NCBI GenBank assembly: GCA_028280845.1
Contig: JANQKZ010000015.1
Span: 1-62,797, forward strand
Source of the DNA: Opitutales bacterium
GTDB lineage: Bacteria; Verrucomicrobiota; Verrucomicrobiia; Opitutales; JABSRG01
DNA: 62,797 nucleotides
Direction: 5' to 3'
The notes beneath the pieces were generated by a model. The model did not search any database, was not told the DNA's origin, and saw only the letters and a list, made by a program, of their open reading frames with translations. Below are positions 5,126 through 62,708 of this stretch, piece by piece. The position numbers and the translations under genes are program-made. How positions within the stretch are numbered: position 1 is the stretch's first letter; each line of letters begins with the position of its first letter.

Positions 5126-6148
5126 TCAGGCGGCGGGCAGGTAGTCGCGGCCGATTTCATAGCCTAGGGGTTGGAGATGGGATTCTATTTTTTCGCGGGC
5201 ACCACGGGAGCCGACGTAGAGGAGAAGGAAGATATCGCCGGGGTCGGGAAGGACGGATGGGTCGGAGATGGGAATGCCGCGCCATTCGAGTCCGGTTTTG
5301 TTGTCGTCGATATCGATGAAGCGGTTGACGGGGACCCCTTTTTCCAAGAGGGGAGCGAGGCGCATGCGGGAGCGTTTGCCGGCACCCCAGACCCAGATCT
5401 CTTTTTTTCCCTGGAGGCGGCGCTCGATGAGGTGGGCGAGGTAGATCGCTTTAACCAAATAAAAGGCCTCGGTGCGGTAGCGCGAGTCGGTGCGCGACAT
5501 ACGGTCGGGGGAGTCATACCAGTCGAGCAGGATCTCAGGGCATTTCCCCGGGAGGACCCCGGCATCGATCCACCGCAACCAGAGTTCGTAGTCCTCGGGA
5601 AAGGGGCAATTCTCGTAGCCCCCGTGACTCTCAATGAGATGGCTATGGAAACAGATACTGGGGTGGGCAAAGGGAGATTCCACGAAGCGGTAGTTTTTAA
5701 TGTCCTGGGGTTCGACGAGCGAGTTGATCCAGTCGACATACAAGGCGTAGCCCAGATTGGCTTCCCGATCTCCACAGTAATTGACGCAGGAACCGACAAA
5801 CCCGATCTCCGTATGGGTTTCAAGAAATTGAACCTGGGTCTCAAGGCGCTGGGGATAGGCATAGTCGTCCGCATCCATGCGGGCGATGAATTTTCCGGTG
5901 GCCCGGGCGATCCCGAAATTCAGGGCATCCACGATACCCGACCCCGGATTGGTGAAGAGGCGAATTTTTGCGTTTTTGAAGCCGTGCGACTTGGCAATAT
6001 AGGGCGAGGTGTCTAAAGAATGATCATCGACCAGGATGAGCTCCCAGTCCTTTAAGGTCTGCTTCTCGATCGATTCGATGGCGCGAGCCAGGGTAACTTC
6101 AGCGTTTTTGACCGGGAGGATGACGGATACGACCGGGGAGGATGCCAT
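5126..6148 (-). CDS. GT2 family glycosyltransferase with C-terminal Rossmann-like domain
   Basis: A 340-residue enzyme whose first 230 residues form a GT-A glycosyltransferase domain: VSVILPVKNAEVTLARAI, the nucleotide-binding ELILVDDHS, and the metal-binding MDADD motif (FIARMDADDYAYPQR). The C-terminal 90 residues (IWVWGAGKRSRMRLAPLL, then NRFIDIDDNKTG and FLLLYVGSRGA) form a separate Rossmann-like module like those in sugar-modifying enzymes. The donor and acceptor sugars are unknown. It is likely cytosolic or membrane-associated and active in surface polysaccharide or glycoconjugate assembly. It lies 71 bases upstream of the DUF3592 operon on the same strand. Confidence 0.85.
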   Translation of the reverse strand: MASSPVVSVILPVKNAEVTLARAIESIEKQTLKDWELILVDDHSLDTSPYIAKSHGFKNAKIRLFTNPGSGIVDALNFGIARATGKFIARMDADDYAYPQRLETQVQFLETHTEIGFVGSCVNYCGDREANLGYALYVDWINSLVEPQDIKNYRFVESPFAHPSICFHSHLIESHGGYENCPFPEDYELWLRWIDAGVLPGKCPEILLDWYDSPDRMSRTDSRYRTEAFYLVKAIYLAHLIERRLQGKKEIWVWGAGKRSRMRLAPLLEKGVPVNRFIDIDDNKTGLEWRGIPISDPSVLPDPGDIFLLLYVGSRGAREKIESHLQPLGYEIGRDYLPAA

Positions 6149-51632: not shown

Positions 51633-51983
51633 ATGAAATCAAACAAGCAAAGTCAGTTGGCCAGAGACCTTAAATCGGATGCTTTCATCGTGAAGGTCGC
51701 GGAACGGTTTAAGATGTTGGGCGAACCGATGCGGTTGAAATTGATTCAATCCCTGATGTCGGGCGAACGGACCGTGGGGGAATTGGTTCAATCCACGGGA
51801 GCGGCGCAGGCCAACGTTTCCCGCCATCTCAACCACCTGACTCAGGTGGGTCTATTGGGGCGCCGCAAAGCCGGACTTCATGTATACTATCACATTGAAG
51901 ATGAGAGTATATATGGTTTATGTGAGCTGGTCTGCGGAAGTGTGAGGGCACAGGCCAAGGCTGAGCTGGAGGCTTTGAACTAG
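51633..51983 (+). CDS. ArsR/SmtB-family transcriptional repressor
   Basis: A 116-residue winged-helix protein: FKMLGEPMRLKLIQSLMSGE starts the DNA-binding domain and TGAAQANVSRHLNHLTQVGLLGRRKAGLHVYYHI is the recognition helix and wing. The family detaches from DNA on binding metal or oxidation of Cys. The thiols Cys in GLCELVCGSV near the C-terminus could do this. The other Cys used by sulfur-sensing BigR/SqrR types, near the N-terminus, is absent. It is divergent from the RND operon and presumably represses it. Repeat copy 1 begins 3 bases after its stop codon. Confidence 0.88.
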   Translation: MKSNKQSQLARDLKSDAFIVKVAERFKMLGEPMRLKLIQSLMSGERTVGELVQSTGAAQANVSRHLNHLTQVGLLGRRKAGLHVYYHIEDESIYGLCELVCGSVRAQAKAELEALN

Positions 51984-51986
51984 CTG

Positions 51987-52038
51987 GCTGATAGGAATTT
52001 GCTTTTTAGCGGCGTCAGCCGCCGAGGTGGGGGTTGTA
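51987..52038 (+). repeat. Hairpin repeat family, copy 1
   Basis: The family reads GCTGATAGGAATTTGC, TTTTTAG, a stem-loop, then GAGGTGGGGGTTGTA. In this copy the stem is GCGGC-GTCA-GCCGC. It starts directly behind the arsR stop and marks the left border of the carbohydrate region, downstream of the GH106 gene (minus strand). Confidence 0.88.
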
Positions 52039-52287
52039 TGGGTGAGTGGGGTCCCCTCATGCAAATCCTGGTCACTCCGGGACTCTAAGACACCCAGGGT
52101 TTTCTCGATCACGAAGATCTGGCGAGCGTGTTCGGTTTGTTGGAGAGTTTGGGATTTTCCGCGGTCAGCTTCAGTTTCTGCTGCGTTCTGAGAGCTGGAT
52201 TTTGCGGTAAAACACTATGCCACTATCTGGCGAATCACCGAGTGTACTCGGGCTCGGTATGGGTCCGCTTCGCTGCCACTATGGGTT
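52039..52287. other. Unexplained spacer downstream of the GH106 gene
   Basis: About 250 bases between repeat copy 1 and the GH106 stop codon. A partial frame without stops (GAAGATCTGGCG onward, 52108-52215) could be a coding remnant but matches nothing recognised. A near repeat of CACTATG occurs at 52208 and 52276. Confidence 0.3.
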
Positions 52288-55200
52288 CTACATCCATGTG
52301 GTGATTGGTTTTTCCAGAACAATCGGTGCGTTTATACCGCATAGCTCCAACTCACTTTCTGCATTGGGCATGACCCATTGGGGTGCTGTGGTCTGAATGC
52401 TTCTGAGTTCTCCATACTCCTTCATATCTTCGATGATGCGATTCCGCAAAGTAGTGTATACAGCAACCTCCAGCTCATTTTTCGTTTTCAACAGTCCTTT
52501 GGTCGGAAAACGAGCTTCGGGAAAACAGGAACTACCGATCACAATACCATTCAGTTTTGCTTCGTAGATTACCCTCGTATCGGAAAACCGCAGATACACT
52601 TCACCATCTGCTGGATTCAGAAATGTTGCTGGCGCCTTGAAACTAAGATGATAAATCGCTTTGCCGGAGAAATATCGTATTCGAGAATCACGTGACTTTG
52701 AGAACGATTTCAGTTCGCTTGTTCTCTCTGAAAATGGTTTTTCATTGAAACCAAAGAACTCCACCTCGCCATCAGATATCTCCAATTCCGATGTTTCGGG
52801 TGCCGAAGTTTTGATTTCCGCAGTTTCACCGTTGGTTTTCTTGAGCCGGTAGTTGTTGCTTACCGTACCACGAATCACAATGCCCTCTTGGTCATACTCG
52901 GCTTCTGGAATCGACTCCTTGGACGTACCGGGGAAATGGTGCTCACTCCCGATCCAGACTTGTTTAATCCGATCAGTTCGTCTGGGTTTACGAAATAGGA
53001 CGAACTGGGCTTCTCTTGGTCTCAATGTTATCGGTAGATGTGTGAGGCCGTTAACTTCATCAAAAACCGCAGTTTCGCGGGTTGTGCCTGTTGCTGGATC
53101 CCAGATTTCCGGTTGTTTTCCTGCGATGTTAAATCTGCACTGTAGGTGAACATCACGATCTTCCTGATTCACTAAGAAATAAAGATCATTTTCTCCGAAT
53201 CTCCGGTGTGTGTGAAGCAGGATGGGATCGTCGGGGTTTGCCGTTGAAAAATCAGGCTGTAACCCTAGTTCTTCCACTACCTTGCCAATGGGAGAACCGT
53301 AGATAACCAATCCTTTTTTGTAGTGGTTTTGTGTGACAGACTTACCATCGATAGCACCCCAGAGCCTCGTGCCGATGGTTGCCAATTTCCGGTCGTTGCT
53401 TTCGCTGTTGAGATGAGAAACGGTTTGGGTAGGGCGTGGACCGTAGACCACAGCACCTTGACTCACCAGTTCTTCTATTTTTTCCAAAACGGGAAGATCC
53501 ATTCTAGGAACTTCGGGAAGGATCAGGAGTTTGTAGCTCAAACCATTGATCATTGAGATTTCCCCGTTTGCGAGGTCGCTTCTCATGAGTGCATCTGTAT
53601 TGCACATCTGGATTCCATACTCCCTTGTAGCGAGGTGCAGCTCTTCCGGCATTTCGTGATCATAGGCCTCGTCACCGGCGTAGTACAGAAAATCCGCCAC
53701 ACGAATTCCTTTCTGGAGCATGTACTGTTGGCGTTTTAGATAGTCGAACCAGACAGAGCTTTTTTCCCACCAGGGCATCGTCCTGTTAAAATTCTGACCA
53801 AAGGGCCCCAGGGTGAAGATCAGATCCTTTTCCAATGGTTGGTGCACATGAGTGTGCAGCACCATCTGATTGGTTCCACCCGCACAGATGGCTGCCTCTC
53901 CAAAAAGCTTCATATCCCAGGGAGTTTCGCTGAAATCTGAATATCCTGTAAACGCTTCTGCCGGTACGACACTCCTACCATACAGATTTGCGGAATGTGC
54001 AGTTTCTGAAACTCTAACGTAGGATCTACTCTGGTAATCAAGGCTGCCTCGATTCCAATCGTATGCCCAGAATTCCACCATTGATGTGTCAAACAGACTA
54101 TTGGTTCTAAGGATATCTAAAGGAGGATAGTGGTGACTATGATAGGGTGCTTCTGCGTAGAATTTCAGGCCTGCACGCTCACAGAGTACCTGGTAGTGGT
54201 GGAAGTAGTTCTCCTCGACAAGCTCTGCCAATGTGGTTCGGTAATCCTGCAGGAAGCTTTCGGTTTGGTGGTTTGAATGCACCACATTTCCGCAGATTAC
54301 AGGTATCCATGGGGTAAGGCTGTAGCCTCGACGTTTTTCGAACTCTTCAGGAAGGGCTTTTGTCCAGTTTTGAAACTTGCATTCCCAGCTGTCGACAAAC
54401 AGGAATCGGAAAGTATCCCCGACGTGATCGCCAGCATGATCGATCAGTTTTTGTGGAAACTGGGAAAAGTGGTGTTCAAGGGCCGCTTTGTCCATTTTGT
54501 CACATTCCAGACCAGTGCCCGCTTTGGAGGCTGGAGCATTGACGGTATTGGTAGTTGTGAAGCCAAAGCGAACAACTCTCCAGGTTCCCTCTGGAGCAGA
54601 CCACGTGAATCGTCCATCGGACTGTAGTCGGTCCGTCAAATCCAGGATATCACTCTGCTCGATTGGAGTGAAATCGCTTTGATTTTGATGTGAAAGAGCG
54701 TTTTGGGATACCACATGTTCTCTGGCGACAACTTTATCTATATGATGGGACAGTCCGGGAAAATAGAGCGGAATCTCCCCATTTTGCAGGATTTCCAGAT
54801 GGTTGATCAGGAAAGGAGTGCCTTCTTCGTGCTCTATCAGTTTTCTAAACTCAAACCGAATGTGTCGGACCTTGTCTGTGCGAAATGAAAGCTCGTTGAT
54901 TTCATCGGAAATCAACTGACGAAAGCAGCCTTTTTTCTCAAAGGTCGAACCGTCCTGGGAAGTAAAAACACAGATTTCAAGGTCCTGGTCGTCGGGCGGA
55001 TAGTCTTCTCCAAACGCATACACCGGAAACAATTGGACTATTTCTACGGCGATTGGATCTTTATAGGAGACTTCCAACACATCACCCTCTGCAACACTGA
55101 TTCCCTGACCAAAAGGATATCCATCTCTGAGAACACTGCCGATGTTTTCACCGTTGTGGCGGTAAACGGCATCATTCCTCAACTGCTCGCGAACTCCGGG

Positions 55201-55818
55201 CAGTTGGTAGGCATAGATGGAAACGTCCTCATAGTAACCACGGTTTGAGAATGGAATCGGAAGCTTCGTTTCGATTTCTTGATCACCCTCGATGAGACTG
55301 ATGTTCCACGTGCACATTTTCATCGATTGCTCCGGGGAGTTCCAGGGGCCTCCGGATGTGGACCACCCATCGCAGTTGTGCACACCTATTTTGAGCCCGT
55401 ATACTTTGGCTCTGTCCAGTGCGTATCGAAACAGTTCGTACCACTCATCCGAGTTGAACTTAACAGGAGGTATCCCAAAATCCTGCTCGTTAAACATCGT
55501 CACATTGAAAAGGGTAACCTCTGAAATGTTTTGATCGGCGATGGAGCGTAAATCGCGGTCGATTCCTTCGCGAGTGATGGCATTGTCCATCCAGTGCCAC
55601 CAGGTGTGTATGGTCGTTTCGTTTGTTGGGTCGTGGAACACTCTCTCATCAAAGACCTGATGAGCATTCTTCTGGGCAAGCATCTGGCGTTTTACTGCCT
55701 CTGTTCGGGAAGCAGGCAACAAGCCCGGTAGAACAAAAACTCCAGCACCCACTGCTGACTTTTTGAGAAAATCTCTACGCTTGAGGGATAGAAAACTAGA
55801 ATCTGACGATAGGGGCAT
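52288..55818 (-). CDS. GH106 alpha-L-rhamnosidase-like, Tat-exported
   Basis: A 1176-residue secreted hydrolase of the GH106 type. The N-terminus has a twin-arginine motif (RRDFLKK) and hydrophobic core (SAVGAGVFVLPGLLPASR), so it is folded before export. The catalytic part starts with TWWHWMDNAITREGIDRDL and continues through GVHNCDGWSTSGGPWNSPE and RFLFVDSWECKFQNWTKALP. The C-terminus adds a beta-sandwich (ATFLNPADGEVYLRFSDTRV). GH106 removes terminal rhamnose from plant, algal or bacterial polysaccharides. Its base composition looks more A/T-rich than the core genes. It is flanked by repeat copies 1 and 2. Confidence 0.85.
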   Translation of the reverse strand: MPLSSDSSFLSLKRRDFLKKSAVGAGVFVLPGLLPASRTEAVKRQMLAQKNAHQVFDERVFHDPTNETTIHTWWHWMDNAITREGIDRDLRSIADQNISEVTLFNVTMFNEQDFGIPPVKFNSDEWYELFRYALDRAKVYGLKIGVHNCDGWSTSGGPWNSPEQSMKMCTWNISLIEGDQEIETKLPIPFSNRGYYEDVSIYAYQLPGVREQLRNDAVYRHNGENIGSVLRDGYPFGQGISVAEGDVLEVSYKDPIAVEIVQLFPVYAFGEDYPPDDQDLEICVFTSQDGSTFEKKGCFRQLISDEINELSFRTDKVRHIRFEFRKLIEHEEGTPFLINHLEILQNGEIPLYFPGLSHHIDKVVAREHVVSQNALSHQNQSDFTPIEQSDILDLTDRLQSDGRFTWSAPEGTWRVVRFGFTTTNTVNAPASKAGTGLECDKMDKAALEHHFSQFPQKLIDHAGDHVGDTFRFLFVDSWECKFQNWTKALPEEFEKRRGYSLTPWIPVICGNVVHSNHQTESFLQDYRTTLAELVEENYFHHYQVLCERAGLKFYAEAPYHSHHYPPLDILRTNSLFDTSMVEFWAYDWNRGSLDYQSRSYVRVSETAHSANLYGRSVVPAEAFTGYSDFSETPWDMKLFGEAAICAGGTNQMVLHTHVHQPLEKDLIFTLGPFGQNFNRTMPWWEKSSVWFDYLKRQQYMLQKGIRVADFLYYAGDEAYDHEMPEELHLATREYGIQMCNTDALMRSDLANGEISMINGLSYKLLILPEVPRMDLPVLEKIEELVSQGAVVYGPRPTQTVSHLNSESNDRKLATIGTRLWGAIDGKSVTQNHYKKGLVIYGSPIGKVVEELGLQPDFSTANPDDPILLHTHRRFGENDLYFLVNQEDRDVHLQCRFNIAGKQPEIWDPATGTTRETAVFDEVNGLTHLPITLRPREAQFVLFRKPRRTDRIKQVWIGSEHHFPGTSKESIPEAEYDQEGIVIRGTVSNNYRLKKTNGETAEIKTSAPETSELEISDGEVEFFGFNEKPFSERTSELKSFSKSRDSRIRYFSGKAIYHLSFKAPATFLNPADGEVYLRFSDTRVIYEAKLNGIVIGSSCFPEARFPTKGLLKTKNELEVAVYTTLRNRIIEDMKEYGELRSIQTTAPQWVMPNAESELELCGINAPIVLEKPITTWM

Positions 55819-55887
55819 AAAACTACTGTATCATAGGGTTGTGTCGTATGGGACAGAAAAGAACTGAAACCCATGTAAAATCAGAGA

Positions 55888-55939
55888 GCTGATAGGAATT
55901 TGCTTTTTAGCGGTGTCAGCCGCTGAGGTGGGGGTTGTA
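55888..55939 (+). repeat. Hairpin repeat family, copy 2
   Basis: The stem is AGCGGT-GTCA-GCCGCT, closing with one G-T wobble pair. It lies 69 bases upstream of the GH106 start. On its other side the truncated symporter begins at once. Confidence 0.88.
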
Positions 55940-56610
55940 TGTTCTGGCTGGCATGGGGACGGGTGATGAGAGTCGCTATTTTGGGGCAAAAAGTGATCGC
56001 GATTGCGCTCTACAATCAATGTTACAAGGCGTAACTGTTGCCTTCCGTTGGCCGATGATGATTGGCTTTGCAGTGCTTGGCCTATTTCTAATCAATGAAC
56101 TTTTCCCTAATCAGGATCGCACCGAAGAGACTACCAACATTATTCATGAATACTACCCAGATATTGAGCCTGGCTTCTGGCATGATTTAACCGCAAAAAT
56201 TGTAAATGACCCGGAAGCCTGTGTCCCGGCAATGGTCCGGCAAATCCAGGGAGTACTGGGTGAAGACTGGCAACGAAAGCTGCCGGTGATCAGCTACAAC
56301 GGCACAGTTAATCCGGAACAAATCCTGCCTGCCGTAATGTTGAATCGTATACCTCTTGGCCTTCGTGGATTTTTGCTGGTAGCTATGCTTGCTGCAATGA
56401 TGTCGACCTGAGCAAGCGAAGTAAATAAAAGTGCAGCCCAATTCGTTAAGGATATATATCAGAATTTTCTTCGACCTAGAGCACCTAACAGAGAACTGAT
56501 CGCTATCTCCTGCCTATCGGCAGCAGGCATCGTCATTGGTGCTTTCCGGATGGGTGTTTCTGCGGAAAGTATTAATGATCTGTGGGGCTGATCATCATGA
56601 GTCTGACGCC
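55940..56610 (+). pseudogene. SSS-family sodium/solute symporter remnant
   Basis: The reading frame encodes LAGMGTGDESRYFGAKSDRD, RWPMMIGFAVLGLFLINELF and GLRGFLLVAMLAAMMST, the C-terminal half of a sodium:solute symporter (SLC5). It has an internal TGA at 56409, after which homology continues (EVNKSAAQFVKDIYQNFLRP, then ESINDLWG), a second TGA at 56589 where a one-base loss breaks the WGW-like motif, and no convincing 3' end. The 5' half is absent: the homology starts within a few bases of repeat copy 2. SSS proteins import sugars or acids with Na+. Confidence 0.8.
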
Positions 56611-56671
56611 GAAGGCCTGGAAGCGCTGGGATAGCTTTAGGCAAAAGATTCAGGCCGCTATCTTTTTGTGC

Positions 56672-58090
56672 TCAGGGTATGACCAAAGAGCCATAGAGAT
56701 TGTTATACTTGTCTGATAGAGCTTTGTCTGTGGAGGACCGATCACTGGCATTTAATTGCAGTTGGGCGATGGAGTCCGCCACTTGATCAAAGCGCTCGGC
56801 ATCGACTGAAGAAATTAAATACCGCAATGTCCTCTGACGAAGTTCGGGCTCCGCGATGGAGGCGGCCAATGTGACTGCTGTTGCGGGTTGGGACTCAATG
56901 TAGTGGTGGCTTATCGCTTGGGCGCCGGCGTCTCGAACCACGCCGTCGGGCAATTCGCCAAACCAGGCGATGGTTGACTCATGGTTTTGAATCAACTGAT
57001 GACCGATCAGGCGGCGCGTCGTTTCAGCTTGGGCATTTTCCGGTAGAGCTCTGAGCGCCCCGAATGCCTGGGTCGGATTGTCTTTCGCGACACGATTCAA
57101 AATCGATTCGAAGGTGTCGGTTGCAAATTCGTTCACATGTGGATGGTTCACTACAAAATCCAGGAACACATCTGGCGCCGGATCATCATGAGATCGAATG
57201 TATTCGGTGATAACTGATTCCTGCGAGTGGGGGCTATCCAGCTTGGCCATCCACGACTTCAAGGTCTTCAGATCCTGCCCGTTCCAGTTGCGAACCAACT
57301 CCACGGCGAGTTGGGTATGGATGTTCGAGGCATCCAACTGAAGGACCAGCTCCGAGGCTTCTTCGGGGAAATCTGCAATGTAGCCGCGCATGATGTGCGT
57401 ATAGCAATCGGTGAGCAAATGGTCCGAAGCATCGGAGGTCGCCAAGCCCTCTATCCAGGCAAACGCCAAATCATAGTCCTTACCAATCCAGCCTTCGGCA
57501 ATGGATCGCATGATCACTTCACGGTCACCCTGCTCCTTGACTGTAGGCAAAAGCTCGATGCTTCGCTCGGGATTTGTTTTCGCAAGATGGGCGAGAGCCT
57601 GACGTAAATGCATTTGGTAATCGGACGTGTGCATCGCTTGCTTATTATGCTCAATCCAGAGATACAGGGCTTCGGGCTCTTGAAGCGCCCATTGCCTAGC
57701 AAGGACGCCCGTCATTTCCCGTTTCTGGTCCGCAGGTGCACTCAAGAGGAAATCAGAGGCGGCTATTGGATCACGGGTGCAGAGATTGAGAAAAAAACGA
57801 CTCAGCACATAACCCTCCATTGAGTTTAAAGTATCGTCAAAAACTACCGGGTATTGTTCCGCAATGGATGCCAAAGAGGCGAGGAGCTCCGGCTGAGCTG
57901 GGGCGATCGCATGGTCTTCAATGCGTGGTTTTACGGAGCTTTGAGCATTATCTTTCAGCGAAGATTGAGCGCTCTCGATTACTTCGATGTGTTGATCGTG
58001 AAGTCCATCCACATATGGCCGCAAAGCCATGCCAGCCATCATCGAAATAATAGCAACTGTCAGGTATTTGGCTGAGCGGTTGAAAGACAT
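56672..58090 (-). CDS. Helical-repeat protein, hypothetical
   Basis: A 472-residue protein with an N-terminal membrane anchor (YLTVAIISMMAGMALRPY). The rest is all-helical, with an irregular repeat of about 33-36 residues containing the pattern ALxxWIE/ALxxLPE (for example ALQEPEALYLWIEHNKQ, DYDLAFAWIEGLAT, NPTQAFGALRALPENAQ, ESTIAWFGELPDGVV). Such anchored helical-repeat proteins are common and numerous in Verrucomicrobiota, with no known biochemical role. It likely faces the periplasm and binds other proteins. No operon partner is visible. Confidence 0.7.
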   Translation of the reverse strand: MSFNRSAKYLTVAIISMMAGMALRPYVDGLHDQHIEVIESAQSSLKDNAQSSVKPRIEDHAIAPAQPELLASLASIAEQYPVVFDDTLNSMEGYVLSRFFLNLCTRDPIAASDFLLSAPADQKREMTGVLARQWALQEPEALYLWIEHNKQAMHTSDYQMHLRQALAHLAKTNPERSIELLPTVKEQGDREVIMRSIAEGWIGKDYDLAFAWIEGLATSDASDHLLTDCYTHIMRGYIADFPEEASELVLQLDASNIHTQLAVELVRNWNGQDLKTLKSWMAKLDSPHSQESVITEYIRSHDDPAPDVFLDFVVNHPHVNEFATDTFESILNRVAKDNPTQAFGALRALPENAQAETTRRLIGHQLIQNHESTIAWFGELPDGVVRDAGAQAISHHYIESQPATAVTLAASIAEPELRQRTLRYLISSVDAERFDQVADSIAQLQLNASDRSSTDKALSDKYNNLYGSLVIP

Positions 58091-58219
58091 CTATGTCCGG
58101 TTGAATGGCTATTTCAGGTCAGGAAACGCTTTTCAATTAAGTTTGCGACCAGGAGGCAAACAGTCTCCTGATCACAATCAATCATGAAGATTGTTCCGTT
58201 TGAAGGGTGTTTACGACTT

Positions 58220-59737
58220 CTATTCTTTTTTAATGAAAATCCAGTCTACGTTGGTATCGCCAGTGACGAAAATAAGTTCCACATCAGCAACACCGCGAGA
58301 CATGTTAACGCCTGTCGCGAGGTGAATGGTGTCCCAGTTTTGCCAACCACCGGTCGCTGGCAGATTGACGACGCCGAGATCCTGACCCTTGACTCTCAGC
58401 CTGACTTGCTGGTTTCCTGGGGCCGAATACCTGAGTGTAAAGCGGTAGTTGCCGTTGGCGAAAAACACGCCGATATGCCTTATGCTTTCCCCGGCCTGAG
58501 TCCAGCCCACATTCCAACCATTGCCATCGCCAGTGTCCTGAATGTCCAGATCTCCGCCTCTTCTGAACTTGCCGCCATAGTTGCCTGAGCTAAAGTCATT
58601 GTAAGTGTCACAAGCTTCGGCTTCGAGTTTCATCGTGCGTGCATCCGGATCATTGAATTCCTGCAGGTAGTTGATATACTGGTTGGGATAACTCCAGCCC
58701 GGGGCGTCGCTTCGATAAAGGGCATTCGATTCCTGGTAATTAGTCCATCCCTCGATCAAGGTGAATGAGGTGTCCAGTGTGCTCACAATGCCATTGTAGA
58801 ATGTACTACCATTGTTTCTTGGGATAATCTGATTGGGATTCGTAGGATGACTCGGGTTGACATAGCCGGGAATCACAGTGCCAATGCGATGCTTGTGGTC
58901 AACCACAGTCCAAGGTTCGTTGGGGGGTGAGAACCAGCCATTTAAACCATACACGTCGGGATTGTTGCGAACAGAGCTATCTCCCCAAAATTCGTCAACG
59001 GAAGCTTTATCCGGAACGAAGTAGGGACGAACGCCATAGACCACTTCAAAATGGTTCGCGAGCCAGGTGAGTCGATTCGTGTAGTTGTTTGCGTGGTTGA
59101 TGCAGCCTCCCGTCATTGCTGGGTTCAAGCCCCATATTTGAATGACCGGTCTTCCATTGATGCGATACCACCATTGGGAAGGAACCGTGTTGAACCAGGG
59201 AGCGACATTCTCATCAAAGACAATCCGGGCAAACATATTGTTGTTGGCCAAATCGAATGGCTGACTGTAGATTGATTGGGCTCGTATCCCCCAGTTGGCG
59301 GTATCCAGGAAGCACGCAACTTTCATGATATTTGGCGTAACGCCTGCGCGGTTAAATGCGTCGATCAACCCCGATAGTTCTATGGGGTTCATGTTCCCCT
59401 CTCCCGTGCCGCGAGAGGCCATCAGGATGACAGGCATCCGGGCTTGAATCTGCTCTGCTACCAAATTGTCCCACCAATCCGCATCGCGATTATATGATTT
59501 AAAGAGGGGCTGTTCGCTGCTGGCCGCCGCGTGGTGTTCGTGCACGTCATATCCAGAGAGAGACATGAAGGTGGTACGGGAGCCGGAAGGTGGAAGCAGT
59601 GTAATGTCTGCGGCTGGCACCGCAGCCTCACCGACATTGCTTAACGATAGGCACAATGTTGCTAAGATGGTTTTTGATAAGCAATGAGTGCTGGGGGGGG
59701 ATTTTAGGTGTCTTGTAACACCGTAGAGGGTATTCAT
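58220..59737 (-). CDS. DUF5010-type glycoside hydrolase-like protein with CBM6
   Basis: A 505-residue secreted protein. A signal peptide (ILATLCLSLSNVGEAAVPA) precedes a barrel-like domain with YDVHEHHAAASS, QARMPVILMASRGTG, WWYRINGRPVIQIWGLNP and NPDVYGLNGWFSPPNEPW, a DUF5010/GH71/GH99-like pattern. The last 140 residues form a CBM6 (KLEAEACDTYNDFSSGNYGG, then GGDLDIQDTGDGNGWNVGW, and SAPGNQQVRLRVKG). It probably cleaves an alpha- or beta-glucan/mannan type polymer outside the cytosol; substrate uncertain. Repeat copy 3 ends just 14 bases upstream of the start codon. Confidence 0.75.
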   Translation of the reverse strand: MNTLYGVTRHLKSPPSTHCLSKTILATLCLSLSNVGEAAVPAADITLLPPSGSRTTFMSLSGYDVHEHHAAASSEQPLFKSYNRDADWWDNLVAEQIQARMPVILMASRGTGEGNMNPIELSGLIDAFNRAGVTPNIMKVACFLDTANWGIRAQSIYSQPFDLANNNMFARIVFDENVAPWFNTVPSQWWYRINGRPVIQIWGLNPAMTGGCINHANNYTNRLTWLANHFEVVYGVRPYFVPDKASVDEFWGDSSVRNNPDVYGLNGWFSPPNEPWTVVDHKHRIGTVIPGYVNPSHPTNPNQIIPRNNGSTFYNGIVSTLDTSFTLIEGWTNYQESNALYRSDAPGWSYPNQYINYLQEFNDPDARTMKLEAEACDTYNDFSSGNYGGKFRRGGDLDIQDTGDGNGWNVGWTQAGESIRHIGVFFANGNYRFTLRYSAPGNQQVRLRVKGQDLGVVNLPATGGWQNWDTIHLATGVNMSRGVADVELIFVTGDTNVDWIFIKKE

Positions 59738-59751
59738 CTTTGTATTTTTTG

Positions 59752-59803
59752 GCTGATAGGAATTTGCTTTTTGGCGGCGTCAGCCGCCGAGGTGGGGGTT
59801 GTT
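59752..59803 (+). repeat. Hairpin repeat family, copy 3
   Basis: The stem is GCGGC-GTCA-GCCGC and the run before it reads TTTTTGG instead of TTTTTAG. It lies 14 bases upstream of the DUF5010/CBM6 start codon, so that gene's leader, and perhaps its promoter, must include the repeat. Confidence 0.88.
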
Positions 59804-60039
59804 TGAATGTTTTCCGCTTGCGGCAGAACAAACCCTGCAGTCGCAGGGGAATGGGGTATCCAGTTTCCCCATTTCCTTATCCTAATGGTTTTCAGCAGTT
59901 TAAGATATCATCGCGGCTGCTGGTATTTCATCATTAAACCCTGGAGAAGGGACTGAAACCAATAATGAGAGAGGGTTATTGATTTTCTTAATATGACATC
60001 ATCTATTGTTATGAGCGCGCCTTGGAGGCCTCATAACCA
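59804..60039. other. Spacer between repeat copies 3 and 4
   Basis: No gene was recognised. It contains a hairpin CCTGC-AGTC-GCAGG at about 59839-59852. Near its right end GTTATGAG (60008-60015) and CTCATAAC (60030-60037) enclose GCC-TTGGA-GGC. That makes an 11-bp stem with a 3-base bulge ending 2 bases before repeat copy 4. Confidence 0.5.
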
Positions 60040-60091
60040 GCTGATAGGAATTTGCTTTTTAGCGGTGTCAGCCGCCGAGGTGGGGGTTGTA
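60040..60091 (+). repeat. Hairpin repeat family, copy 4
   Basis: The stem reads GCGGT-GTCA-GCCGC with a T-G wobble. It lies 124 bases beyond the stop codon of the PL6 gene, and directly follows the GTTATGAG/CTCATAAC hairpin. Confidence 0.88.
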
Positions 60092-60215
60092 GCGATTTGT
60101 GTCGTGACTTCCGTGAGGAATAAAGCCCAGGCCGAGAAAGGAATCGACTCCTCGCTTTGTCCAGGTGGGCTGGGACGGCGAGAGTCCAATCGGGTTCGCA
60201 ACACAATCGAGAAAA
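60092..60215. other. Spacer between repeat copy 4 and the PL6 gene
   Basis: About 124 bases downstream of the lyase. On the minus strand a stop-free frame reads LGLGFIPHGSHDTNRYN, which could be a coding remnant truncated at the repeat like the other two. No family could be assigned. Confidence 0.3.
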
Positions 60216-61625
60216 TCACATTCGCATCCAGCGAGGTCCCACATCCGATGGCGCAAGTGGGATCCTGGGGCGAGGTGTCGGTCGCTCATCTGCGCCGATA
60301 TCTGGCCTCGTGTCACGTGGGTCGCCATCGATATCTCGAATCGCCTCCCTCAGCGGTAGTCCGGTATCCACCGCGTCGGCGATATCGGGGCGCAATCGCT
60401 GGACTGCGGACTCGAATGGCGGCGGGGCGGGCACAATCTCGATCCCGGATGGGGGCACCTGCCATTGGGCCGTTTCGTCGTTGGTTGCGAGGAGATTGCT
60501 CTGCCACGTGGTTTCAGCCGTTTGCAGGTAGGGAAAAGGGGGGTCGCTCGGGTTGATAAACAAGTTGTTGCAGACGCGGAGACCTTGGGGCGGGCGCTCT
60601 AGGCCACCGAAGACGATTGCTCCCCCCTGGCCTCCGACAATGGTATTGTGGGCGATCAGCGAATGCAGTGTGCGCTGGTAGCCGCGGGTGGATGGTTCGC
60701 CTGCATCGTAGTCGCCGCCGGGAAACAGAATCGCGCCGTTTTTGGCATCAACGATGTAGTTGTTTACGATGACATTACCGTCTCCATAAGCCCGAATACC
60801 GACATCGGTATTGATGAGGTAGTTGCCTTCCACGCGAGCGGCATTGCCCGCCCGCAGCACGATGCCGCCACGCCAACTGTCTTGGATCGTATTATGGCGG
60901 ATGAGGTTGCCCGAGGATTTGCTGGAGACGATCTCCCGATCGCCGTTGCAATTGATAAACAGGTTTTCTTCGACGATGGTGTGAGAGTAGGCGTATTGCC
61001 AATCCAGGTACACCTGCTGCCCGATTTGCACGGGCTCTTGGCCATTATTGCTGAGCCTGTCGATATCGCGAAAGTAGTTGCGGCGGATGATATTGTGCAC
61101 CGTGCCTTCGCCTTTCTGATCGGGACGGACGAGGATGCTCACACCGATGGAGCGGTTGCCCTCCATGTAGTTAAATTCAAAGATGTTGTGGTTGGCTCCC
61201 GCTCGAAACTGGACGATATGCTTTTTCACGCCTTGACCCGTATTGATAAAAGCGCAGTGGCTGATGCGGCAGCGGTCGGCGGCCGTAAGATTCAAAATGT
61301 TGGGGTGGGGGATATCGGCAAAGCGAAAGCCCTCAAAAATGACATAGGATGCGGAAATATCGATGGTACACGCTTCCGTAAAAGTTACGGATCCTCCCTC
61401 TTCCGCCCGAATCGTGATGGGCGCTTCCGGTTTGCCCGAGCGATCGACGAAGAGGGATACCTGCCGATAGGTACCGGACGCGAGCACATACTCGGAGCCC
61501 GGACGGGCGAGACGCAGCGCTCGCTGGAGATCGGCGACAGACGTAAAGGTCTCGGTCGGCTCCTGCGCTCGCACAGCAGCTAGCACCGTTAGCGCAAAAA
61601 TCGCAGTCCAAAGTAGATTTCGCAT
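60216..61625 (-). CDS. PL6-family polysaccharide lyase (alginate/chondroitinase-B type)
   Basis: A 469-residue secreted lyase. A signal peptide (LLWTAIFALTVLAAVRAQ) precedes a right-handed parallel beta-helix. The PL6 active-site features are visible: the calcium-binding NNGQEPVQIG, then NGDREIVSSKSSGNLIRHN with the conserved Glu and Lys, and GGIVLRAGNAARVEGN with the Arg. PL6 enzymes cleave alginate or related uronate polymers by beta-elimination. The tail (GDPRDTRPDIGADE) is the common beta-helix ending. The gene is more G/C-rich than its GH106 neighbour. It is flanked by repeat copies 4 and 5. Confidence 0.87.
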   Translation of the reverse strand: MRNLLWTAIFALTVLAAVRAQEPTETFTSVADLQRALRLARPGSEYVLASGTYRQVSLFVDRSGKPEAPITIRAEEGGSVTFTEACTIDISASYVIFEGFRFADIPHPNILNLTAADRCRISHCAFINTGQGVKKHIVQFRAGANHNIFEFNYMEGNRSIGVSILVRPDQKGEGTVHNIIRRNYFRDIDRLSNNGQEPVQIGQQVYLDWQYAYSHTIVEENLFINCNGDREIVSSKSSGNLIRHNTIQDSWRGGIVLRAGNAARVEGNYLINTDVGIRAYGDGNVIVNNYIVDAKNGAILFPGGDYDAGEPSTRGYQRTLHSLIAHNTIVGGQGGAIVFGGLERPPQGLRVCNNLFINPSDPPFPYLQTAETTWQSNLLATNDETAQWQVPPSGIEIVPAPPPFESAVQRLRPDIADAVDTGLPLREAIRDIDGDPRDTRPDIGADERPTPRPRIPLAPSDVGPRWMRM

Positions 61626-61690
61626 AAGCCTGACGGAAGGAATTACGGTTTCACCGAGAAGCCATTGTCAGTTCTAGCTATTGCTGGCTG

Positions 61691-61740
61691 GCTAATAGGA
61701 ATTTGCTTTTTAGCGGCGTCAGCCGCCGAGGTGGGGGGTA
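61691..61740 (+). repeat. Hairpin repeat family, copy 5
   Basis: The start reads GCTAATAGG instead of GCTGATAGG, the stem is GCGGC-GTCA-GCCGC, and the end differs (GGGGGGTA). It lies 65 bases upstream of the PL6 start. The bile-acid symporter family gene is cut off at its other edge. Confidence 0.88.
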
Positions 61741-61972
61741 TACAATACTTCAAAGGCGGCATGACCGTATACTGCGCCAGCAAACCGAAGCCGACTAACT
61801 TCCAGCGCTGCACGACACCCACGAAGTCCTTTGGACTCAAGGTCATCCCCATGCCAAACATGATCAGGCCAAGTAGCCACGGGATCGCCGGCTTGGTGGG
61901 GATAAATAGGCCCGACTGCCAGAGCGCCAGAGCCGAGCAGGCAATCGCCAGAGGTAGGAAAATCCGTTTCAC
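61741..61972 (-). pseudogene. Bile acid:sodium symporter family gene, truncated at repeat copy 5
   Basis: Starting with GTG directly after the cupin stop (TAGGTG), it encodes about 77 residues of the N-terminus of a BASS-family transporter: PWLLGLIMFGMGMTLSPKDF, then LVGFGLLAQYTVMPPL. A full gene has about 300 residues. The frame then runs into repeat copy 5 and gains the tail PTSAADAAKKQIPIS before a stop. The rest of the gene is absent. BASS proteins import organic anions with Na+. It is a broken gene, possibly an operon partner of the cupin. Confidence 0.82.
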
Positions 61973-62401
61973 CTATTTTGCGTCTTCTTTGATCACGGCC
62001 AGTGGCTGGTCCTTTACCCCGGCATAAACGACCACGATTTCTGCAGGAACGTCGCCATCATTGCGACCGTAGTGCAGCGTATCGACCATCTCAATGAGGC
62101 CTTCGCCGGCTTTGATCACATGGACCGTGCCATCCTCTGCAGTCACTGTGATTTTGCCACTGATCAAATAGCCCGCATTGATCGAAGGGTGCGTATGCCA
62201 TTTTAATTTGGAGTGCGGAGGCACCGTAACCTTAACAACCGAGATCAGGGGATCTTCCTTCGGATAAGCCGGCAGCTTCTTGCCGTTCCATGATTTGTCC
62301 GACTGGACGAGGATTTCGACTTTAGCGTCGCCATGATCACCATCGGCAAAGGCAAACAACGGCAGCAGGCAGAATGAGAGCAGTAACGTGAGTTGTTTCA
62401 T
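61973..62401 (-). CDS. Secreted cupin-domain protein
   Basis: A 142-residue protein with a signal peptide (QLTLLLSFCLLPLFAFA). The cupin core is clear: VTVPPHSKLKWHTHPSINAGYLISGKITV has the HxH metal-ligand pattern and VIKAGEGLIEMVDTLHYGRN holds the second motif. It may bind metal in the periplasm; the substrate is unknown. The ATG at 62401 is chosen because it begins the signal peptide. A longer frame reaches back through repeat copy 6 to 62506 and is an artefact of the repeat. It is followed immediately by the truncated BASS gene. Confidence 0.83.
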   Translation of the reverse strand: MKQLTLLLSFCLLPLFAFADGDHGDAKVEILVQSDKSWNGKKLPAYPKEDPLISVVKVTVPPHSKLKWHTHPSINAGYLISGKITVTAEDGTVHVIKAGEGLIEMVDTLHYGRNDGDVPAEIVVVYAGVKDQPLAVIKEDAK

Positions 62402-62410
62402 AAAAATCAA

Positions 62411-62457
62411 TGATAGGAATTTGCTTTTTCGAGGCGAAGCCTCAGGGGTGGGGGTGA
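62411..62457 (+). repeat. Hairpin repeat family, divergent copy 6
   Basis: TGATAGGAATTTGCTTTTT is kept, but the stem is GAGGC-GAA-GCCTC instead of GCGGC-GTCA-GCCGC, so both arms changed together. The right flank GGGGTGGGGGT is kept. It ends 9 bases before the cupin ATG (minus strand). Confidence 0.8.
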
Positions 62458-62708
62458 TCCGTTTTCGTCCAAGGGCTACGCTGAGATAGGTAGCGGGTGG
62501 AGGCATCAGCAGGGGAGGAAGGTGATGATATTGGATGAAATCGTAGGTTTGAGCTGGATCCGGTCAACGTAAATGGGGTTTCCCACCCATTTACTGAGCA
62601 TACTGGGCGATTTGTAGCTCATGCTCCACAAAAAGGGTCAGTCCAATTTTTCATGTTTTCCATTGACCACAGGACACAGCCATTCCAAATTTTCGAGCCC
62701 CATAGGCT
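62458..62708. other. Spacer upstream of the RAYT gene with palindromes
   Basis: Two inverted repeats are visible: AAATGGG (62571-62577) with CCCATTT (62586-62592), and GGTCA with TGACC flanking the stretch of about 62636-62671. RAYT genes are often flanked by the repeats they act on; these may be candidates. Confidence 0.4.

Follow-up and report, generated by a model that had tools for sequence, protein, structure and literature searches.

Repeat array at the contig end

The window, i.e., the whole stretch of 62,797 nucleotides analysed here, is the entire contig C9, which belongs to a draft genome of 4.79 Mb and terminates within an array of short hairpin repeats and metabolic genes (Table 1). 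Six copies of the repeat unit were found (starts at 51990, 55891, 59755, 60043, 61694, and 62412) against a chance expectation of 0.1, all in a single orientation and with none in the rest of the window, which confirms the six-copy, one-orientation repeat of roughly 50 bp described in an earlier sequence-only reading. The unit is approximately 48–50 nt long and reads, on the gene strand, AACCCCCACCTC-N-GCGGC-loop-GCCGC-NN-AAAAGCAAATTCCTATCA, followed by G, T, or A. Its hairpin has a GC-rich stem and a loop of 3–4 nt, and the pairing of the stem is preserved despite substitutions, as in copy 6 (Table 1) and in the relative G003 (GGGGC/GCCCC); 87.5% of the stem cells were paired, versus 25–68% in slid controls. 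The single-strand folding energies of the units were modest (z of -0.9 to -2.5). The ends of the unit are non-complementary, i.e., it has no terminal inverted repeats, as is typical of the IS91 family, and an Rfam search of the unit matched no family. The left edge of solo units is sharp and reads (A/C)AACCCCC across different families, and units are also found in tandem with a period of 49–50 nt. A longer variant carries added sequence ahead of an identical terminus.

Table 1 Repeat units and genes of the array in the window
Feature	Position	Strand	Remarks
Unit 1, putative right end of an IS91-like element	51988..52037	-	Hairpin at 52009-52022; 3' end abuts the stop codon of an ArsR-type gene (51633-51983)
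GH106 alpha-L-rhamnosidase-like gene	52288..55818	-	Between units 2 and 1
Unit 2	55889..55938	-	71 bp ahead of the GH106 start codon
Gene of unknown family, 472 aa	56672..58090	-	Between units 3 and 2
DUF5010 + CBM35/CBM6 gene	58220..59737	-	Between units 3 and 2
Unit 3	59753..59802	-	16 bp ahead of the DUF5010/CBM gene start codon
Unit 4	60041..60090	-	126 bp past the PL6-like gene stop
PL6-like (chondroitinase B family) lyase gene	60216..61625	-	Between units 5 and 4
Unit 5	61692..61739	-	67 bp ahead of the PL6-like gene start codon
Small cupin gene, signal-like N-terminus	61973..62401	-	Between units 6 and 5
Unit 6	62410..62457	-	Variant paired stem GAGGC/GCCTC; just ahead of the cupin start (~62401)
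Unit 6 upstream tail	62458..62606	-	Resembles the C53 element tail

Along the gene strand, one gene precedes each of units 5, 4, and 1, two precede unit 2, and none precedes unit 3, as unit 4 lies 239 bp before it across a gene-free interval. Four of the six units are located approximately 8–71 bp ahead of start codons on the same strand; the gene borders near the units are approximate because the open reading frames were called mechanically. The G+C content is 48–50.5% at positions 52000-60000 and approximately 54% across most of the window, consistent with acquired DNA.

The repeat had initially been read as bracketing polysaccharide-degradation genes. GH106, PL6-like, and DUF5010/CBM genes do lie in the array, and genes beside units outside the window include GH9, GH28, and sulfatase genes, but the link is not exclusive: the 472-aa protein has no Pfam or NCBIfam match and no carbohydrate family, and elsewhere units adjoin RecQ, PQQ dehydrogenase, redox, and transport genes.

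Distribution and orientation of the unit

The genome contains approximately 25 copies of the unit, 19 of which have another copy within 5 kb (1.2 expected from simulations), and a cluster of six copies in 10.5 kb was reached in none of 2000 simulations. The copies are strongly clustered but are not special to this array. Of 373 genomes from the order Opitutales, 23, spread over six families, contained units according to a covariance model; in these genomes, the units were again clustered and had a single orientation in most contigs. An exact-pattern scan of species genomes gave matches only in Opitutales or unspecified-Verrucomicrobiota bins; a viral origin of the unit was rejected, as a scan of viral contigs gave no match. 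The complete genome G211 carries 36 copies of a sister motif, AATTTCCTATCA (none in the reversed control), whose body and hairpin differ from those of the unit and whose terminus is similar. The terminus is common to several unrelated unit bodies. Our literature search, which was incomplete in coverage, found no paper describing this repeat or any IS91-type gene array from Verrucomicrobiota.

Two further palindromic features were observed. Near positions 2593906-2593935 of G211, close to the chromosome skew switch, two sister termini stand head to head and form a perfect palindrome (GTTGATAGGAAATTCAATTGAATTTCCTATCAAC). A second hairpin repeat (CCTGTC...GGCGTAGCCCT-CGGGCGAAGACGGA) occurs directly ahead of some units (L058 ~8300, L057 7017, L011 5030-5089, and window 62458-62500), and may be a further small palindromic element, with the left edge of the unit as its insertion point.

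With respect to replication, 21 of 24 copies in the genome containing the window were on the strand opposite the G excess (10 of 12 loci, p=0.02). In G211, 29 of 34 copies obeyed the replichore rule (p=5e-5 by copies), as did 9 of 10 clusters (p=0.01). In the other drafts, for which local skew was used, the orientation was mixed (e.g., in G063 and G088) or opposite in several. Overall, the units tend to be oriented according to GC skew and replichore, which would be expected of single-stranded-DNA transposition.

Association with IS91-type transposases

In G003, three tandem units are immediately preceded by a Y2 transposase gene on the same strand, and in G226 a second Y2 transposase gene precedes its unit, again on the same strand. 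Both transposases exceed the NCBIfam cut-off for IS91 (NF033538), contain Y2 and zinc-binding domains (PF04986 and PF14319), and carry HPHIH and YYGxY motifs, which places the parent elements among HUH-Y2 transposons with a zinc domain. The transposase C-terminus ends with EDPDPWAHDTEPVFWTD, and remnants of it adjoin units in other genomes; in seven loci with transposase genes or remnants, the distance from the stop codon to the unit end was 249–286 nt. One such remnant, frameshifted and decayed, was found on contig C53 of the same genome as the window (272 nt from stop to unit end). The sister terminus AATTGAATTTCCTATCA was likewise found 231 and 175 nt past the transposase frames of G053 and G190, respectively; for the sister motif, the link is based on these two loci, which encode more distant transposases. 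A hairpin-bearing right end located at a fixed spacing downstream of the transposase gene is characteristic of the IS91 family. Among the 373 genomes, four of the eight with such a transposase also have units (p=0.0007).

Unit 6 and its upstream tail show approximately 68% similarity to the C53 element tail across 198 bp, and the match stops exactly at the unit end. No intact Y2 transposase was found in the draft genome containing the window or in G211; the former absence may reflect an assembly gap because the genome is a draft, whereas the absence in G211, which is complete, is firmer. One transposase remnant (L134) has no downstream unit. Taken together, the adjacency to transposases, the fixed distance, the C53 remnant and its shared tail, the sister termini, and the co-occurrence among genomes provide good evidence that the unit represents the right end of IS91-like elements.

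Junctions and gene turnover

A clear gene-plus-unit presence/absence difference was found between two congeners: G007 carries a unit, a 412-aa gene, and a unit where G088 carries one unit at the same place, with both flanks conserved. This difference supports cassette-like gene turnover. Across loci, the right end is constant and the left parts vary, with several bodies and lengths sharing a 3' end, which is the pattern of one-ended transposition. Alignments ended at unit edges in 72 of 396 cases against 9 expected, an excess that partly just reflects the repeat itself. In three cases, the unit end was joined to sequence that is uninterrupted elsewhere; one of them involves a 1.37-kb segment that is 97% identical between L137 6467-7832 (G211) and L136 3367-4732 (G222), which belong to different families. 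This segment carries a foreign-type unit and is a recent transfer. The IS91 target tetranucleotides (GAAC/CAAG-type) were not seen at three junctions, all of which were diverged and had no clean empty sites. A DNA comparison of a G031 locus likewise gave no clean empty site, and L125, considered as an empty site, was rejected after it was found to contain a degenerate unit too. At L056 (~5560-5760), a chimeric join connects a fragment reading like the N-terminus of a GH29 fucosidase with the right, non-coding portion of the transposon.

Proposed origin of the array and alternative explanations

Rolling-circle transposition of IS91 and IS801 begins at the right end (ori) and often overshoots the left one. 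One-ended transposition and capture have been described for these elements, which mobilize short right-end fragments or adjacent DNA (PMC3189936, PMC5714925). We consider it highly probable that the repeats in the window are solo right ends, of the oriIS/ori91 type, of an Opitutales IS91-like rolling-circle transposon that builds arrays of 'gene + end'. The full element would consist of the transposase gene, approximately 175–286 nt, and the right end. The HUH-Y2 transposase would nick the ~48-nt unit, composed of the hairpin and the conserved terminus AAAGCAAATTCCTATCA, with the nick expected at or beside TGATAGG on the strand 5'-CTGATAGGAATTTGCTTTTT-hairpin-3'. Transposition would begin at this right end and frequently miss the left end, so that short tails, or neighbouring genes together with one end, would be copied into exposed single strands elsewhere, and repeated events would produce direct 'gene + end' arrays in one orientation. 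From these features we infer the nicking at the unit, one-ended transposition as the array builder, and the mobility of the carbohydrate genes in the window. Since the transposase appears to have been lost from this genome, the array is probably a relic or dependent on a transposase from outside.

The cassette arrangement proposed from the sequence alone retains its direct repeats, its mostly single-gene contents, and the G007/G088 difference, but it would arise via transposon ends. The accompanying idea of recombination between copies fared less well: nothing here shows such recombination, and, given that the unit is probably an IS91-like transposon end, one-ended rolling-circle transposition explains the array better.

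The layout of the window fits repeated additions of 'gene + end' and also a 48-nt mini-element inserted between genes. In the latter explanation, which we regard as quite possible although somewhat less likely than not, the unit would be a separate non-autonomous element that originated from the transposon end, has a left edge of its own, and is moved in trans by an IS91-like transposase; the genes would be stationary, and clusters would mark tolerant, acquired regions. The sharp left edge across families and the tandem copies, which are unlike ragged truncations, point in this direction, as does the lower G+C content of the array region, but the gene-plus-unit difference between G007 and G088, the chimeric joins, the varied left parts, and the strong clustering of units argue against it. 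A role for the units in regulating a carbohydrate regulon, as its promoter, operator, or 5' leader, or else as an outward promoter of the ISCR1 kind, is improbable: outward promoters are found in the ISCR1 oriIS (PMC6218425), and most units in the window closely precede start codons, but across the genome the downstream gene is co-oriented in only 15 of 22 cases and the functions of these genes are mixed, while the units have no promoter- or terminator-like match or Rfam family and are linked to a transposase. An outward promoter or another side effect on expression is possible in addition to the transposon-end origin, given how near four units are to the start codons that follow them.

If the units were sites at which an integron-like or Xer-type tyrosine recombinase moved cassettes, a direct array of mostly single genes would be accounted for, and true integron integrases exist in G063. 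This explanation is nevertheless very improbable, as the unit tracks IS91-type transposases and has neither attC boxes (including R boxes) nor complementary ends, and as both the genome containing the window and G211 have only Xer-like recombinases and no integron integrase, with no IntI above the cut-off in the former; the initial judgement that the array is not an integron holds. Two tyrosine recombinases of G211, both Xer-like and the only ones present, were considered as movers and rejected, the location of one at 1.848 Mb near a cluster being judged a coincidence. In G063, which is also unit-rich, contigs C59 and C60 (L074 and L079) encode two integron integrases above the IntI cut-off, plus fragments, of a separate cassette system. 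REP sequences spread by a RAYT (a Y1 HUH transposase) are similarly small intergenic hairpins with replication-linked orientation, and Y1 genes are present in several genomes, but G211 and G088 have no Y1 transposase despite the many copies that each carries (in G211, of the sister motif), the Y1 genes of the genome containing the window are not flanked by units, and the units follow Y2 transposases, so that we give this origin hardly any credence. Retrotransposition, which would also give a fixed 3' end and a ragged 5' end, was set aside because an IS91-type transposase was found.

Marine Verrucomicrobiota have large and variable sets of polysaccharide-degrading genes. A dispersed transposon end at single-gene boundaries offers a testable mechanism for the assembly of such sets. 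As the fixed end makes insertions directional and comparable, IS91-type gene capture, so far studied mainly around resistance and virulence genes, could be examined in an environmental lineage. A bolder and rather unlikely extension is that the 48-nt IS91-type origin is at once a replicating mini-element and the border of a platform for gene shuffling across Opitutales families, integron-like but operating via rolling-circle transposition; if so, 'gene + origin' arrays would acquire and shed individual genes, including carbohydrate genes, and exchange them between these families.

Comparison with known systems

REP/BIME sequences with RAYTs and integron attC arrays share small hairpins, direct arrays, and replication-linked orientation with the units, whereas the key genomes here have no RAYT or integron integrase. 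Like ISCR elements, the parent elements have an IS91-related transposase with the oriIS on its 3' side and are associated with captured genes; in contrast, their transposases scored 119–159 bits on the ISCR clade Ia model (cut-off, 925) and fall outside the ISCR clade, and the units are multi-copy solo ends located beside metabolic rather than resistance genes in environmental Opitutales. Eukaryotic Helitrons also combine an HUH enzyme, a hairpin near the end, capture of gene fragments, and non-autonomous copies (in part, PMC5714925); the transposase here is a bacterial Y2 enzyme with no helicase, and the likeness is drawn from features, not from sequence. The units differ from IS91 and IS801 in that they are mostly solo 48-nt ends in gene arrays, in a genome with no intact transposase, and in that the GAAC/CAAG-type target was not seen at the three diverged junctions. 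They resemble these elements in the Y2 HUH transposase with a zinc domain encoded by relatives, in the essential-type end 3' of the gene, in the fixed right and varied left ends, and in the apparent movement of short right-end fragments and neighbouring DNA (PMC3189936).
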